A DNA stretch of 5,427 nucleotides. Origin: an uncultured Ellagibacter sp. Its GTDB lineage: Bacteria; Actinomycetota; Coriobacteriia; Coriobacteriales; Eggerthellaceae. Below are positions 1 through 5,427 of the stretch, piece by piece. The stretch is taken from positions 1-5,427 of the forward strand of contig CAKTSW010000118.1 of NCBI GenBank assembly GCA_934613165.1. The letters run 5' to 3'. Positions within the stretch are counted from its first letter, which is position 1, and every line of letters starts with the position of its first letter. Below the pieces are notes generated by a model, which was given only the letters and a program-made list of their open reading frames with translations, searched no databases and was not told where the DNA came from. A program made the translations under genes and the position numbers.

Positions 1-245
1 AGCTCGGGGTGCTGCAGCACGAGCTGCACCGGGCACGCCCCGCGCGCGGGAAGCGGGCTCCCGTCGACGAAAACCTCGCCCGACCAGGGCTTTTCGTAAC
101 CTGCGAGGATACGGCAGAGCGTCGACTTGCCGAACCCCGACGGAGCCGCGAGCGCGACGCGTTCACCAGGGGAAACAGCAAGATCGAAGCCGCGATAGAG
201 CATGCGGCTCCCGTACCCGAACGAGATGTGCGAAGCCTCTAGCAT
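1..245 (-). CDS. nikE: Nickel/peptide-type ABC transporter ATPase, second subunit (partial, 3' end outside window)
   Basis: This is the N-terminal 81 codons of an ABC ATPase, read on the minus strand and cut by the window edge. It would hydrolyse ATP at the cytosolic face as the partner of the upstream ATPase in an oligopeptide/nickel importer. The visible protein starts MLEASHISFGYG, an A-loop-like opening. The Walker A is APSGFGKST at about residues 34-42, and the Q-loop glutamine falls in LVLQHPE at about residue 78, just before the edge. The first P-loop position is alanine rather than the usual glycine, which the general P-loop pattern allows. The start at 245 overlaps the end of the upstream ATPase by 7 nt (ATGCTAG). 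It is preceded by AAGGGGG about 7 nt upstream, so translational coupling is likely. The signature, Walker B and H-loop lie outside the window. The nikE name rests on operon position. A DppF/OppF-type peptide ATPase is the alternative. Confidence 0.88.
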   Translation of the reverse strand, partial: MLEASHISFGYGSRMLYRGFDLAVSPGERVALAAPSGFGKSTLCRILAGYEKPWSGEVFVDGSPLPARGACPVQLVLQHPE

Positions 246-1342
246 GCGCGTTCCCCCTTCGCATCTTGCGTGCGTGCCGCGGAACCGTCGCACGCGAAGC
301 CGGCCGCGGCATCTACGCGCACGGAGGCATCCGCGCCCCGGGCATCGACGCTATTCTCATGACGCTCCCCGTCCGCGTTCTCACCAGGCCCCACCTCGAA
401 CCCGTGGCTCGGAAGCGCATGCCAGAGCGCGCGCGAGAACGGGTGCTCGAGCAGCTCGGGCGCAGCGAAGCTTTCCACCGACGTCTCCTCGACCACGGTG
501 CCGTCGCGGAAAACCGCCACGCGGTCGGCCACGCTGAGCGCGAGCTCGATGTCGTGGGTGATGAGCAGCACGCCGCCGCCCTCGTCGGCGAAGGCGCGAA
601 GGTCGGAAAGCGCGCGAACGGCCAGGTCGAGATCGAGGCCGGGCGTGGGTTCGTCAGCCACGATGAGCTTCGGGTCCTCCATAAGCGCCGAGCAGAGAAG
701 CACGCGGCGCGCCATGCCGCCCGACAGCTCGTGCGGGTACAGGCCCGCGACCTCCTCGGAAAGCCCGTAGCGCGCGAACAACGCCTGACGGCGCGCACGC
801 CGACGGGTGCGGTCGCAGCGCGGGCAGGCGCCTTCCACCTGCTTGCCCACCTTCATGAGCGGGTCGAGCGACGACACGCTTTGCGGGACGAGCGCGATGC
901 CGTGGCCCCGCAGCGCGGCGAGCGAGGCCGCATCCTGCAAAACGCCGTCGAACCAGATGTCGCCCGACACCTCGGAGTTCGGCTCGAACAGGCCCATCAC
1001 GCTGTCGGCGAGCAGCGTCTTGCCCGACCCCGACGCGCCGACAACGGCGATGATCTCGCCGGCATGGACCGAGATGCTCAGATCGTCGATGACGGGAACG
1101 CGCCGGCGCGGCGCGGCGAAGAACGACCCGCTCTCGTCGTACATCTGAAACGACACGCTTAGGTGCTCGACCTGCAGCAGGTGGTGCCCGTGTTCGTGGC
1201 GCGACGCGCGCGTGTGCGTATGGTGATGGTGCCGCTCGCCGTCCGCATGGTCGTGCGCCTCGTGAGCCCCCCGCATTTCGGGGACGGCCGCATCGCCGCG
1301 GGCGAGGGCGTCGCAGGCGCGCATCGGTTCTCCTTGTTTCAT
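239..1342 (-). CDS. nikD: Nickel/peptide-type ABC transporter ATPase, first subunit, with His-rich N-terminal extension
   Basis: This is a complete ABC ATPase of the DppD/OppD/NikD group, cytosolic and docked on the permeases. From the start used here (MKQGEP, 367 aa) the landmarks are: a His-rich leader at about 27-54; Walker A GASGSGKT at about 102-109; Q-loop LVPQS with Q154; a CPRC pair at about 173-176; signature LSGGM at 206-210; Walker B LIVADEP at 226-232; and H-loop ITHD with H263. The HPFSRALWHALP stretch near 300-311 is typical of oligopeptide-type ATPases. The leader has 12 His in 28 residues, which is not normal for the family and suggests metal binding. About 50 low-complexity residues follow the conserved end. 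An in-frame ATG at 1354 (+4 aa) has only a poorly placed G-run. The ATG at 1342 has GGAGG 5 nt upstream and the ATG at 1324 has AAGGAG 5 nt upstream, so 1342 or 1324 is preferred. Nickel specificity is inferred from the operon. Confidence 0.92.
   Translation of the reverse strand: MKQGEPMRACDALARGDAAVPEMRGAHEAHDHADGERHHHHTHTRASRHEHGHHLLQVEHLSVSFQMYDESGSFFAAPRRRVPVIDDLSISVHAGEIIAVVGASGSGKTLLADSVMGLFEPNSEVSGDIWFDGVLQDAASLAALRGHGIALVPQSVSSLDPLMKVGKQVEGACPRCDRTRRRARRQALFARYGLSEEVAGLYPHELSGGMARRVLLCSALMEDPKLIVADEPTPGLDLDLAVRALSDLRAFADEGGGVLLITHDIELALSVADRVAVFRDGTVVEETSVESFAAPELLEHPFSRALWHALPSHGFEVGPGENADGERHENSVDARGADASVRVDAAAGFACDGSAARTQDAKGERAC
1181..1264 (-). other. Histidine-rich metal-binding-like stretch in the NikD N-terminus
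   Basis: These codons encode 28 residues with 12 histidines, including a run of four (HHHHTH) and the pattern HEHGHH. They sit immediately before the ABC domain begins (LLQVEHLSVSF). His-rich tails of this kind are known on nickel proteins such as HypB, UreE, SlyD and CooJ, where they store or chelate Ni(II). A role in nickel buffering or feedback here is inference. The composition is read directly from the sequence. Confidence 0.8.
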
Positions 1343-1352
1343 AGGTTCCTCC
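1330..1352 (-). promoter_or_regulatory. Two stacked Shine-Dalgarno sites serving alternative nikD starts
   Basis: On the minus strand GGAGG (1348-1352) sits 5 nt before the ATG at 1342. AAGGAG (1330-1335) sits 5 nt before the in-frame ATG at 1324. Both spacings are workable. The first in-frame ATG at 1354 is preceded only by a G-run that nearly touches it. These sites argue for initiation at 1342 and/or 1324. Either choice keeps the His-rich leader. Confidence 0.6.
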
Positions 1353-1360
1353 ATACCCCC

Positions 1361-2293
1361 CTACCGCTGGGCCGTGTGGGGGTCGATGAGCGCGCGCAAG
1401 CTCGACCCGGCGACGTCGAACAGCACGACGCAGGCGACGAGCGCGAGCCCGGGGAACACGGCGAGCCACCACATTCCGGCCGAGAGGTACCCCATCGACT
1501 CGCTTAGGATGACGCCGATGGCGGGCTGCTCGGGCGGAAGGCCGAAGCCGAGGAACGTGATCGCCGCCTCGTGAAGTATGGCATGGGGGAACAGAAGGAT
1601 AAGCCCCACCAGGAACTGGGGAAACACGTACGGGACGATATGGGAAAGCGCGATTTGCGCGGGGCTTTTCCCCAGCTTGCGCGCCACCGCGACGTAGGTG
1701 GACTCGCGGCATTGCATGATCTCGGCGCGAAGGACGCGCGTGAGGCTCGGCCAATGCGTGAGCGCGATGCCGACGGTCACGCCCCAGAACCCCTTGCCGA
1801 GCGCGAACGAGATAAGGATGAGCAGCACGATGTGGGGCACGCCCATGACCAGGTCGATAAGCCAGGTCACCACCGCGTCGGCGCGCTTGCCGCCAAGGGC
1901 CGCCACAGCAGCGAGGATAAGCGCGACCACCGCCGAGAACGCCGCGGCGCCAAGCCCCACGAGCACGCTCGTCGACAGGCCCGCAAGCGTGCGCAAGAGC
2001 ATGTCGCGTCCCATCCAGTCGGTGCCGAAGGGGTGGGCAAGGCTCGGGGCGAGGTTCTTCGCCGTGAAATCGACCTCGGTCGCGTTCCCGTACACGCAAA
2101 GCCCCGCCACGACCACCGCCGCGAGCGCGCACGATGCGAACACGCACGAGACAAGCGCGACCTTGCGGTTCGCCGCGAACGCCCGGCGCGGCTTATGGAG
2201 GACGCGCGGTACTGCGGCGACGCCCTGCGCGCACGATGCGGCAGACGCGGACGCCTCGACGGCCGCGGCCGGCATATTCCGCTCGCTACGCAT
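1361..2293 (-). CDS. nikC: Nickel/peptide-type ABC transporter permease, NikC/DppC family
   Basis: This is an inner-membrane channel subunit of 310 aa, a usual length for DppC/NikC permeases. An Ala-rich cytosolic N-terminus (about 1-44) precedes TM1 (about 45-68). The family motif HPFGTDWMGRD follows at about 87-97. Further hydrophobic spans lie at about 106-132, 144-165, 224-247 and 275-297. The EAA-type loop that contacts the ATPases is YVAVARKLGKSPAQIALSHIVP, about 200-221, with its conserved glycine at 208. The late loop GFGLPPEQPAIGVILSES (about 249-266) is typical of this permease group. The start at 2293 is decided by AAGGAGG at 2299-2305, five nt upstream. It overlaps the nikB stop by 8 nt, so coupling is likely. 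The six in-frame codons before the second Met are kept because of this strong ribosome-binding site. Family assignment is firm. Nickel rather than peptide is inferred from the operon context. Confidence 0.93.
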   Translation of the reverse strand: MRSERNMPAAAVEASASAASCAQGVAAVPRVLHKPRRAFAANRKVALVSCVFASCALAAVVVAGLCVYGNATEVDFTAKNLAPSLAHPFGTDWMGRDMLLRTLAGLSTSVLVGLGAAAFSAVVALILAAVAALGGKRADAVVTWLIDLVMGVPHIVLLILISFALGKGFWGVTVGIALTHWPSLTRVLRAEIMQCRESTYVAVARKLGKSPAQIALSHIVPYVFPQFLVGLILLFPHAILHEAAITFLGFGLPPEQPAIGVILSESMGYLSAGMWWLAVFPGLALVACVVLFDVAGSSLRALIDPHTAQR

Positions 2294-3293
2294 GAGCGCC
2301 TCCTTCCCTTCCCGGCATCGCGCCCGAGCGCCTGATGCGCGGGTCGACGACAGCGTACAGAAGATTCGCCACGAGGTTGCCCCCGAACACGAGAGCCGCC
2401 GACACCATCGCGATGCCCGCGAGCAGCGCCGCGTCGCCGCCCAGGCCCGCCGTCACGGCCGCCTGCCCCAGACCGGGATAGGAAAACACCTGCTCGACGA
2501 GGACGGACCCGCCGAATATCTCGGAGATGAGCGAGAACTGCAGCGTGATGGCCGGAAGCGACACGTTGCGCACGACATGACGGAAGACGACGCGCCGAGG
2601 GCTTTCCCCGCGGGCGCGCGCGAACCGGACGAAGTCGCTTTCCATGACGTCGATGGTCTTCTCGCGCGTGTGCAGGGCGATGTTCGCGACGCCGACGACC
2701 GATAAAGTGAGCGCCGGCAGCACGATATGGTGGATCGAGTCGGCCAGGGTGACGTCGGACGCGGCCGCGCCGACAGGAACCGAGAAGCCGAGCGGGAACC
2801 ACCCCAGCTCGACGGCGAACACGGTGAGGAACACGAGCCCGATCCAGAACGCGGGCGTCGCGGCGAGCAGGTAGCAGTACGCCTTCACGGCGCGGTCGAG
2901 CGCGCCGCCCCGCAAAGCGCCCGCGGCGATGCCGAGCACGAACCCGAGCACGCCGCTTACGACCCACGCAATCGCCATGAGCGCAAGCGAGCTCGTCGCG
3001 CGGTTGGCGATCACCTCGGCGACGGGCGCGTTGAAGCGCAGAGACGTGCCGGCGTCTCCCTGCAGAAGCGCGCAAAGCCAGCTTGCGTAGCGTTCGAGAA
3101 GCGGCGTGTTCGCACCCCAGCGCTCGGCGAGCTGGGCGCGCTTCGCCTCGGTCATGTTGAGGTAGGCGGCCTGCCCCACGTTCGCCTGAACAGGGTCGAT
3201 GGGCGACAAGCTGATAAGCGCGAACACGACGAGGCTCACGGCGAGCAGAAGCAGGAGGAAACGTATGAGGTTGTCGGCAATAAGACGGGGCAT
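2286..3293 (-). CDS. nikB: Nickel/peptide-type ABC transporter permease, NikB/DppB family
   Basis: This is an inner-membrane channel subunit of 335 aa, the usual DppB/NikB size. TM1 is at about 10-30 (RFLLLLLAVSLVVFALISLS). A periplasmic-side stretch with the family's GDAGTSL motif follows at about 79-85. Later spans are at about 103-125, 139-160, 189-207, 245-262 and 293-315. The EAA-type loop facing the ATPase is FVRFARARGESPRRVVFRHV, about 221-240, with glycine 229. VEQVFSYPGLG (about 266-276) and VDPRIR (about 317-322) are classic for this permease group. The ATG at 3293 has GGAG about 6 nt upstream. It follows nikA by 36 nt, and its stop lies within the nikC start. A short Arg/Gly-rich tail ends the protein. 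Family assignment is secure. The substrate call comes from the neighbouring binding protein and the upstream operator. Confidence 0.93.
   Translation of the reverse strand: MPRLIADNLIRFLLLLLAVSLVVFALISLSPIDPVQANVGQAAYLNMTEAKRAQLAERWGANTPLLERYASWLCALLQGDAGTSLRFNAPVAEVIANRATSSLALMAIAWVVSGVLGFVLGIAAGALRGGALDRAVKAYCYLLAATPAFWIGLVFLTVFAVELGWFPLGFSVPVGAAASDVTLADSIHHIVLPALTLSVVGVANIALHTREKTIDVMESDFVRFARARGESPRRVVFRHVVRNVSLPAITLQFSLISEIFGGSVLVEQVFSYPGLGQAAVTAGLGGDAALLAGIAMVSAALVFGGNLVANLLYAVVDPRIRRSGAMPGREGGAHA
2299..2305 (-). promoter_or_regulatory. Shine-Dalgarno site for nikC
   Basis: AAGGAGG on the minus strand, 5 nt before the ATG at 2293, lies inside the end of nikB. It is a near-ideal ribosome-binding site and fixes the nikC start. 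It also supports coupled translation across the 8-nt nikB/nikC overlap. Confidence 0.75.
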
Positions 3294-3329: not shown

Positions 3330-4982
3330 TTACGCCCATTCCCATTGGTCGACGTTGTTCACGATGCTCCAGCCATGCCCATGCGGATGCGGCTTCTGCT
3401 CGGCGACTTTAAGCCCCTCGTTCACGAAGTACAGGTGGTCGACGTTGGCGAACCACACCCACGTCGCCGCACCCTGCGGCGCCACGCCGTCGGTTCCGTC
3501 CCACTGGGCCTTTTTGTACAGCTCGTAGGACTCTTCCATCGTCTTCGCGACGAGCGCGGCATCGAGATAGCCGTCGACCTGGGCGTTCTCGTAGCACGCG
3601 CAGTTTCCCACGCCCTTGGAGTACGTAAGGTTGTACAGCTCGATCGGGGAATTGGAGCCCCATCCCCACACGACGAGGTCGCTGAACTCGTGCTGGTAGA
3701 TTTCATCCCAGCTCGCGCCCTTCGGCGTGACGGCGATGCCGAGCCCCTTCATCTGGCTCGCGAACTCCTGCGCTATGGCCTGGCGCACCGTGTCGCTCGC
3801 CGCGTAGTACAACGTGAGCTCGGCGCGGACGTCGCCCTTCGCGCGGATGCCGTCGGAACCCGCCGTCCACCCGGCCCGATCGAGCAGCGCGCACGCCGCC
3901 GCGACGTCGGTTTCGCACTTCATGTCGTCGGAAATCCACGGCATGCCGTCGCCGACGCTGTAGGCGACCTCGCCGTACCCCGAAAGCACATGGTCGATGA
4001 GCTGCTGGCGGTCGATTCCCTGGTTGATCGCGCGACGCACGGCGATATCGCAGGTCACGGCGTTGCCGCTTGCGTAGTCGTTCTCGCCGTCGCGGCGCGT
4101 GCCGCCCGGCTCGACCGCAGGCAGCGAGATGCCGCGCGAATCAACGGACGCGCAGTTCAACAGGTCGAAGCCCGCGGGCTGGTTTCCGGCGAACGTCGCC
4201 GAGGTGTAGGCGACGTCGGCCTGCCCCGCCTTCGCCGACGCGAGGGAGGCGTCCTCGTCCTGGAACAGCACGACGACCCGCTCCATCTTCGGGGCGTCGC
4301 CGTAATAGGAGGGGTTCGCCTTGAAGATGGCCTGCTGGCCCTTGTCCCACTGCTCGAGCAGATAGCGGCCGCTGCCGATGGGGGCGCTGCCGTAGTTGGG
4401 GCCGTAGGCGTGCTCGGGCACGATGCCCACCACGGCGAGCGTGTAGAGAAGCGCGTTGAAAGGCTTGTTGAGCGTGATCACGACGGTGACGTCGTCTTTC
4501 GCTTCGGCCTTGTCGACCATGGAAAGGTCGCATTCCGACGCCGCGGAGGCAACGATGCTGTTCACGGTGAAGGCCACGTCGGCGGCGGTAAGCTTCTCGC
4601 CGTCGCTGAACTTCACGTCGTCGCGGATGGTGAACGTCCAGGTAAGGCCGTCGTCTGCACATTCGTACGACGTGGCGAGGTCGTTTTCGAAACCCATCTG
4701 GGCCGTCGTGGTGATGAGGGTCGACTGGATGAGCGGCTCGTGCACGTGCTCGCCGCACCCCCACGACACGAGCGGGTCGAAGCCGGCTGAGGGTTCGGAC
4801 GTCGTGGGCATGGTGACGACCACCTGCTTGGTGTCGCCCGAAGCGGGAGAAGAGGTGCTCGCCGCACTGCCCGAAGACGCCGCGTTCTCGCTCGAGCATG
4901 CCCCAAGCGCTGCCGACGCCGCGACCGTAAGCGCGCCCGTGCCTGCAAGTTTCGCGAACTGCCTTCTCGTTACGCTGCCCAT
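3330..4982 (-). CDS. nikA: Tat-exported lipoprotein substrate-binding protein, nickel type (SBP family 5)
   Basis: This is the extracytoplasmic binding protein of the importer, 550 aa, slightly longer than E. coli NikA. The N-terminus has a full Tat motif TRRQFAK (residues 5-11), a hydrophobic Ala-rich segment, and the lipobox LGAC with lipidated Cys29. A Ser/Ala-rich linker (about 30-50) follows. SBP family 5 landmarks are GLTWTFTIRDDVKFSDGEK (112-130), PIGSGRYLL (201-209) and AVRRAINQGIDRQQLID (314-330). WGWGSNSPIELYNL (439-452) and the C-terminal HPHGHGW (532-538) resemble nickel-binding members of the NikZ/NikA group rather than peptide binders. C461 and C463 form a CAC pair. The start at 4982 is chosen because it places the Tat motif at the N-terminus. 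An AAAGGGG about 9 nt upstream could serve as the ribosome-binding site. Longer in-frame starts would bury the signal. It is the first gene of the operon and lies downstream of a NikR-like operator. A peptide or other metal chelate as substrate remains possible. Confidence 0.9.
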   Translation of the reverse strand: MGSVTRRQFAKLAGTGALTVAASAALGACSSENAASSGSAASTSSPASGDTKQVVVTMPTTSEPSAGFDPLVSWGCGEHVHEPLIQSTLITTTAQMGFENDLATSYECADDGLTWTFTIRDDVKFSDGEKLTAADVAFTVNSIVASAASECDLSMVDKAEAKDDVTVVITLNKPFNALLYTLAVVGIVPEHAYGPNYGSAPIGSGRYLLEQWDKGQQAIFKANPSYYGDAPKMERVVVLFQDEDASLASAKAGQADVAYTSATFAGNQPAGFDLLNCASVDSRGISLPAVEPGGTRRDGENDYASGNAVTCDIAVRRAINQGIDRQQLIDHVLSGYGEVAYSVGDGMPWISDDMKCETDVAAACALLDRAGWTAGSDGIRAKGDVRAELTLYYAASDTVRQAIAQEFASQMKGLGIAVTPKGASWDEIYQHEFSDLVVWGWGSNSPIELYNLTYSKGVGNCACYENAQVDGYLDAALVAKTMEESYELYKKAQWDGTDGVAPQGAATWVWFANVDHLYFVNEGLKVAEQKPHPHGHGWSIVNNVDQWEWA

Positions 4983-5323: not shown

Positions 5324-5427
5324 ATGTGGAGCAGCTGCCATCCGAAGTCGGATGACGACTTGAAAGAGTGCGCTGAACTGGGGAAATCGCTTAATCGCCT
5401 CTCTCAGCCCACCATTTTGACCCTTCT
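5324..5427 (+). CDS. Divergent gene, 5' fragment; possible ArsR-like winged-helix regulator
   Basis: A plus-strand reading frame opens at ATG 5324 and stays open to the window edge, giving 34 complete codons. The ribosome-binding site AAAGAGGT is well placed, and a TATAAT-like GATAAT lies further upstream. The visible protein begins MWSSCHPKSDDDLKECAE and continues LGKSLNRLSQPTILTLL. The second part resembles, without gaps, the first helices of ArsR/SmtB-type regulators (AELFKAL...RILRLL), though the usual DPTR motif is not in register. Early Cys5, His6 and Cys16 could be metal ligands, which is speculative. Its head-to-head position with a metal importer suits a regulator, but it need not control the nik operon. 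Another HTH family or an unrelated protein is possible. The gene itself is likely; the function is uncertain. Confidence 0.6.
   Translation, partial: MWSSCHPKSDDDLKECAELGKSLNRLSQPTILTL

Follow-up and report, generated by a model that had tools for sequence, protein, structure and literature searches.

A histidine-rich leader of fixed spacing on a peptide/nickel-type importer ATPase of Coriobacteriia varies together with one residue of the ABC domain

The NikD-like ATPase of a five-gene ABC importer from an uncultured Ellagibacter sp. begins with a short leader in which eight histidines stand at fixed positions, and within the clade that carries this leader it is absent wherever one residue of the ABC domain, His97, is absent. 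We propose, with slightly less than even confidence, that leader and His97 together make a metal site clasped onto the ATPase, one that would brake nickel import in response to metal.

Results

The window encodes an importer operon whose ATPase starts with a histidine-rich leader

The window (the whole stretch of DNA analysed, 5,427 nucleotides) carries on its minus strand an importer operon consisting of a binding protein, two permeases, an ATPase, and the start of a second ATPase. By its domain set (SBP_bac_5, two BPD_transp_1, and ABC_tran) this is a peptide/nickel (Opp/Nik) ABC importer. Its features are as follows.

2..244, minus strand: start of a second, NikE-like ATPase subunit, 81 residues up to the window edge (from translation and ortholog matches across loci)
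242..1354, minus strand: NikD-like ATPase subunit with the His leader, 371-aa frame, stop codon at 239-241 (ABC_tran PF00005, 85 bits)
1342, 1324, and 1276, minus strand: further in-frame ATGs of the NikD-like frame (sequence)
1181..1264, minus strand: 12 His within 28 residues, 31-58 in the numbering of the 371-aa frame (translation, HEAHDHADGERHHHHTHTRASRHEHGHH)
1181..1249, minus strand: core motif H36-x5-H42-H43-x-H45-x-H47-x3-S51-x-H53-x3-H57-H58 (column counts, 79 sequences)
1064..1066, minus strand: His97 of the ABC domain (SISVHAGEI), directly after strand 2 (row comparison)
1016..1039, minus strand: Walker A, GASGSGKT, residues 106-113 of the NikD-like ATPase (sequence)
1361..2293, minus strand: NikC-like permease (BPD_transp_1; Opp/NikC-type matches below cut-off)
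2286..3293, minus strand: NikB-like permease (BPD_transp_1)
3330..4982, minus strand: NikA/YntA-like substrate-binding protein (SBP_bac_5; closest PDB entries 3ry3 and 4ofl)
3369..3389, minus strand: HPHGHGW near the binding-protein C terminus (PHGHGW also in most leaderless relatives)
4737..4751, minus strand: EHVHE, binding-protein residues 78-82 (operon comparison)

The binding-protein start at 4982 is our choice, and the open frame reaches 5297. A contig scan found 270 relatives, and we kept the 80 top loci, nearly all titled Coriobacteriia; 66 of these 80 had matches to all five subunits, and many of the remaining loci lie on short contigs. Fused importer subunits recur within the clade of leader-bearing ATPases described below: both ATPases match one open frame in L005, L020, L066, and L078 as well as in protein matches of 547-709 aa, and both permeases match one open frame in L005, L014, L020, L037, and L065. 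Near the operon, in the window and nine loci, a search for riboswitches and other RNAs returned tRNAs alone at gathering scores. None of ten neighboring frames in three loci was a nickel gene; these frames, which were picked by length in GC-rich DNA and may be shadows, comprised LigA twice, one each that were ModA-like, TrmB, UvrA-like, and Mbeg1-like, and four without a family.

The first-pass annotation had reported 12 histidines in 28 residues directly before the ABC domain of a NikD-like protein, and this was confirmed. The stretch is in frame with, and immediately N-terminal to, the ABC domain of frame 242-1354, and at the 2.0% His content of the rest of the operon's proteins its occurrence by chance has a binomial P of ∼1e-13. 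The other subunits contain at most 4 His per 28 residues in the window and at most 5 among the relatives examined; the maximum for the ATPases is 14. The annotation had also raised a translation start downstream of the leader, and the sequence speaks against one: four in-frame ATG codons (residues 1, 5, 11, and 27) lie upstream of the eight-His core, and from the core to the first strand of the ABC domain the frame has no ATG, GTG, or TTG (strand limits from AlphaFold), so that a start behind the leader would truncate the fold. A recognizable leader was found in 127/127 listed protein relatives (89 by strict pattern and 38 by eye), which came from leader-containing queries with one listing being the best 120 of 6483. 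P0002, a protein in NCBI and ENA data, is 98% identical across the leader region. The cysteine pair CPRC of the window ATPase is not a conserved column.

Eight leader histidines are near-invariant in position

Column counts were made on 79 sequences, that is, 78 loci plus the window; L001 and L056 were missed by the pattern and left out of the counts, yet both display the motif. The core spacing, H-x5-HH-x-H-x-H-x5-H-x3-HH, is fixed throughout, and the share of sequences with His at positions 36, 42, 43, 45, 47, 53, 57, and 58 is 92, 96, 97, 97, 96, 99, 95, and 99%, respectively. Ser51 is Ser in 76/79, and positions 48 and 56 are Ala and Gly in most relatives. At every one of the eight His columns the codons CAC and CAT are mixed, and proteins with the fixed spacing (67 rows) are 58-72% identical to the window protein; eight near-invariant histidines that persist through synonymous codon change at this level of identity argue for selection on histidine itself. 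The segment N-terminal to the motif varies from 7 to 159 residues (listed proteins beginning with Met). Judged by these columns, the leader is a fixed motif, not a loose storage tail, and its eight-His set likely binds metal.

The leader was most simply gained once in Coriobacteriia

In a class sample of 197 genomes, 59 matched at E 1e-60 or better, and seven of the class-sample matches, with E 1e-89 to 1e-100, start no earlier than the ABC-domain edge. Twelve regions of this sample were read, and the leader was absent in those seven (L081-L087, L085 and L086 being identical) and in L089 and present in the other four. A phylum sample of 396 genomes gave 29 matches, six of them new relative to the class sample and all six without the leader. 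From an order sample of 395 genomes, of which 158 matched, 13 further regions were read for leaderless members; this reading took in the listed late match starts and a few low ones, with the low-scoring G710, G718, and G769 left out.

In a tree of 108 ABC domains, all 87 leader-bearing rows fall in one clade of 92 rows, which has an SH-aLRT of 99 (quick search), is starred, and sits on a long stem branch (0.78). The tree does not contain L072 and L127 (one sequence, its leader cut by the contig end), L046, or the short L139. The best tree needs five changes in the leader, the simplest course being a single gain followed by four losses (in L071 plus L128; in L089; in L132; and in L134), and we therefore read the leader, most simply, as gained once in Coriobacteriia and lost several times. 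Support inside the clade is weak, with 43 of all 101 inner branches of the tree drawn open, and the losses lie mostly on weakly supported branches. The motif was absent in the other relatives read, outside the leader clade. The earlier statement that proteins of this family usually begin with the ABC domain thus stands outside this clade, and within it the leader is the rule. Close relatives lacking the leader, which the annotation had thought would count against its proposal, do exist as five proteins in the clade; nearly all others bear the leader.

Two further observations were made on the tree and the regions read. The ATPase of L076, from a contig titled Clostridia, is the fully supported sister of Atopobiaceae L070, which may reflect misbinning of the contig. 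L137 (G810), whose ATPase frame lies near 5393 and falls outside the clade, has a His-rich N terminus of its own (THTHPHTHQHYLHIHEHD); the conserved spacing is absent and Asp stands at the His97 position, and this N terminus is perhaps an independent gain.

His97 is replaced in every leaderless member of the clade

His97 precedes a conserved GE, itself before Walker A. It is His in 89/89 leader-bearing rows (counting rows that keep six or more of the eight motif His; three were fetched twice, hence 86 distinct ABC domains) and is replaced in 5/5 leaderless clade members, by Asp in L071 and L128, Arg in L089, Gly in L132, and Ser in L134. Outside the clade it is His in two leaderless relatives, L081 and L082; by this comparison His97 is not exclusive to leader-bearing proteins.

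We scanned the columns conserved to 95% or more among leader-bearing operons (NikD 99, NikA 153, NikB 106, NikC 99, and NikE 22, the last over its first 80 residues), with L138 left out and with NikA and NikB covering 4 of 5 leaderless members. Of these 479 columns in five subunits, exactly two, His43 of the leader and His97, were missing from every leaderless member, the other leader columns having failed the fill or conservation filters. The next-least kept NikD columns were Thr291 (1/5) and Val275 (2/5), and outside NikD no column fell under 2 of 4 leaderless members. Kept in all leaderless members examined were 139/153 conserved columns of NikA and 98/106 of NikB (four members) and 74/99 of NikC (five members). 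Since the rest of the importer is kept without it, the leader reads as an accessory rather than as a part of the transport path, and its loss is unlike a general decay of the importer, with one ABC-domain residue going along. The leader thus appears to be an added ATPase segment coupled to the fold, a coupling that is seen through co-variation only. Starred branches support just one leader/His97 pair and the best tree gives five, numbers that do not suffice for a sign test.

The leader is predicted to be partly ordered

AlphaFold predictions of the window protein (68 rows; numbering from Met11) gave mean pLDDT values of 62, 74, and 85 over residues 21-30, 31-40, and 41-50, with residues 1-15 below 50. 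Residues 32, 35, and 42 were isolated strand residues, strand 1 spanned 50-62, and strand 2 spanned 73-86. For the leaderless L071 (59 rows, leader-bearing ones among them), pLDDT was 38, 36, and 44 over residues 1-30 and below 50 for residues 1-32, with strand 1 at 38-50 and strand 2 at 62-75. In other ABC domains, strands 1 and 2 pair antiparallel. If they pair here as elsewhere, residue 87 (His97), which follows strand 2, would come to lie beside residues 47-48 (His57-His58), which immediately precede strand 1, and we infer from these strand limits a contact between leader and His97. Fold comparison returned MetN as the top match, aligned over the ABC domain alone (model residues 48-312), and a 44-residue leader query found no PDB sequence at E up to 10.

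The importer probably carries nickel

Of 86 PDB sequences, the best matches to the binding protein were 3ry3, a putative solute-binding protein (335 bits), and 4ofl, the nickel-binding YpYntA (334 bits); the next scored 153, and the entries named NikA or nickel-binding periplasmic protein scored 91-110. The binding protein is thus close to YntA, its nearest named PDB relative being a nickel protein. The NCBIfam nickel equivalog cut-offs were missed by all four subunits scanned (NikE, cut by the window, was left out): NikD (TIGR02770) reached 148 of 319 bits, NikA (TIGR02294) 154 of 393, NikB (TIGR02789) 190 of 447, and NikC (TIGR02790) 145 of 358. Taking these sequence comparisons together, nickel is the likely substrate.

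Both His of the binding-protein EHVHE were found in 70/71 leader-bearing operons (1 gap) versus 2/10 in one leaderless set, and the motif may give the binding protein an additional metal ligand. As a partner of the leader it was rejected: it is kept in leaderless L132, L134, and L136, and is therefore not tied to leader loss. In leaderless L071 and L128 both His are present with changed neighbors.

The nickel GTPase HypB was present in 48/48 leader-bearing genomes versus 126/149 others of the class sample (E 0.001; p 0.0015, kinship ignored) and lay above its family cut-off in 169 of all 197 genomes. The 48, compiled by hand, were genomes in which the leader was read in their own loci or, failing that, the profile match started at position 30 or lower; G137 and G104 were sequence-checked, and the fragments G094, G157, and G200 and the leaderless G197 were counted in. 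Whether these 48 carry HypB was judged by eye, with a check against 20 of the 23 no-match genomes. Full-length [NiFe] hydrogenase large subunits were not enriched with the leader (30/48 versus 87/149, Fisher p 0.74), and hydrogenase co-occurrence was accordingly rejected as support for it; PF00374 matches, weak ones included, occurred in 45/49 genomes behind 50 loci. The annotation's expectation that orthologues would have the leader and co-occur with nickel enzymes was thus borne out for the leader and for HypB and failed for hydrogenase.

Separately, ∼78 listed [NiFe] hydrogenase large-subunit rows of the class sample (hand count) have one in-frame TGA each, as selenocysteine enzymes would. 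Such a TGA was absent from the hydrogenase matches of the 30 leader-bearing genomes with a match, and hydrogenases with one occur in five leaderless NikD genomes (G061, G105, G112, G160, and G176).

Discussion

A fixed multi-His site, its covariation with a residue of the ATPase fold, and an importer that survives without it together make the leader read as a control part. We suggest that the eight-His leader and His97 could jointly form a metal site on the ABC domain, the metal of which we infer to be Ni(II) (or Zn or Co). Cytosolic nickel would fill the leader site, the filled leader would be tied to His97, and the filled site might slow ATP hydrolysis, by analogy with what substrate does through the extra domains of MetN and ModC; nickel uptake would then be throttled by the amount already inside the cell. 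A more definite version, which we consider possible but doubtful, is a nickel-gated clasp, in which the leader strap folds onto His97 at high cytosolic nickel and stops the motor, a device gained once and dropped several times. Against a brake stand the presence of His97 in L081 and L082, the variation of Thr291 and Val275, nickel scores below cut-off, and a hydrogenase without enrichment, as well as the fact that the regulatory domains of MetN and ModC are larger and C-terminal, with the leader short and N-terminal. Of the three options offered by the first-pass annotation, in which the leader accepts nickel leaving the channel, buffers it, or inhibits the ATPase when loaded, we favor the last.

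The first of those options, in which the leader is an acceptor or chaperone, a docking hand that takes nickel leaving the importer and passes it to HypA/HypB or another carrier, strikes us as unlikely, though it is the best of the alternatives. The leader sits on a cytosolic subunit, HypB accompanies it in every one of the 48 genomes, and a nickel store on HypB itself was not seen: a His-rich stretch before the P-loop was found in 0/27 Coriobacteriia genomes (L099-L104 and L106-L126; this reading covered the part before the P-loop and His counts). That stretch is, however, equally absent from 14/14 leader-bearing and 13/13 other genomes, the latter including L106 (G200), which holds a NikD fragment that may be leader-bearing; a trade-off between the leader and a His-rich HypB was therefore rejected. 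By homology the leader would be located on the outer beta subdomain, away from the permease exit, and the importer persists without a leader in about four lineages.

Somewhat less likely still is a structural site, in which Zn(II) or another ion steadies the ATPase N terminus or the pairing of the ATPases and nickel is neither sensed nor carried. The fixed His geometry, the joint loss with His97, and the predicted order fit such a site as well as they fit sensing. It would nonetheless be dispensable in leaderless members whose subunits are otherwise conserved, and eight ligands exceed the need of one structural site.

We regard as improbable a nickel buffer or store on the importer, comparable to the His-rich tails of HypB, SlyD, and CooJ. 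The density of His would suit it, with a median of 10 His in the best 28-residue stretch (112 ATPase rows, leaderless included), but a buffer does not call for exact spacing and a conserved Ser51 beside a preceding stretch that varies so widely in length, and a floating store gives no reason why an ABC-domain residue should be lost along with it. Among hand-off, structural site, and buffer, it is the buffer that the joint loss argues against most, and a folded, docked site fits the shared absence of leader and His97 better. A His-rich N terminus that serves some role other than metal binding (e.g., in pH), or none, is very improbable given eight near-invariant positions that withstand synonymous codon change at the identities found here.

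Returning to the brake, its interest if true would be that the substrate of a nickel importer feeds back on it directly, with no transcription factor involved, and that a short N-terminal His clasp provides a different kind of post-translational stop for a metal pump. The gut bacteria that bear the leader carry nickel-enzyme machinery. In the open-licence literature (titles and abstract starts) we found no account of a His-rich leader on NikD or another importer ATPase.

Comparison with known systems

HypB, UreE, SlyD, and CooJ carry His-rich tails, variable in length and spacing, that store nickel or serve as chaperones. The window leader resembles them in its dense terminal His and in belonging to a protein of likely nickel handling, and differs in having eight fixed positions and a partner in the fold. 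The annotation's picture of a metal-binding-like leader on a nickel importer ATPase therefore remains probable from the sequence, the leader being His-rich, conserved, and in frame, whereas the likeness it drew to these storage tails is not supported, given the fixed spacing and the absence of His97 wherever the clade lacks the leader. Among solved peptide-branch ATPases, which include E. coli OppD and M. tuberculosis DppD, the leader query had no PDB match at E up to 10.

Like YntABCDE and NikABCDE, the importer has a binding protein, two permeases, and two ATPases, with the binding protein nearest to 3ry3 and 4ofl; unlike them, its four scanned subunits fall below the NCBIfam nickel cut-offs. 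The related operons read in the class and phylum samples lack the leader, unlike the window importer.

The closest parallel to a brake is found in the trans-inhibited importers MetNI and ModABC. According to the review PMC10710835, methionine holds the ATPases apart when bound to the C2 domain of MetN, and binding of molybdate or tungstate by the C-terminal domains of ModC halts the cycle. What these systems would share with the window importer is an added ATPase module that could sense the imported substrate from the cytosol (PMC10710835). They differ in that MetN and ModC use C-terminal domains with the ligand at the dimer interface, whereas the window leader is N-terminal, is ∼25 residues long, and would offer His ligands.
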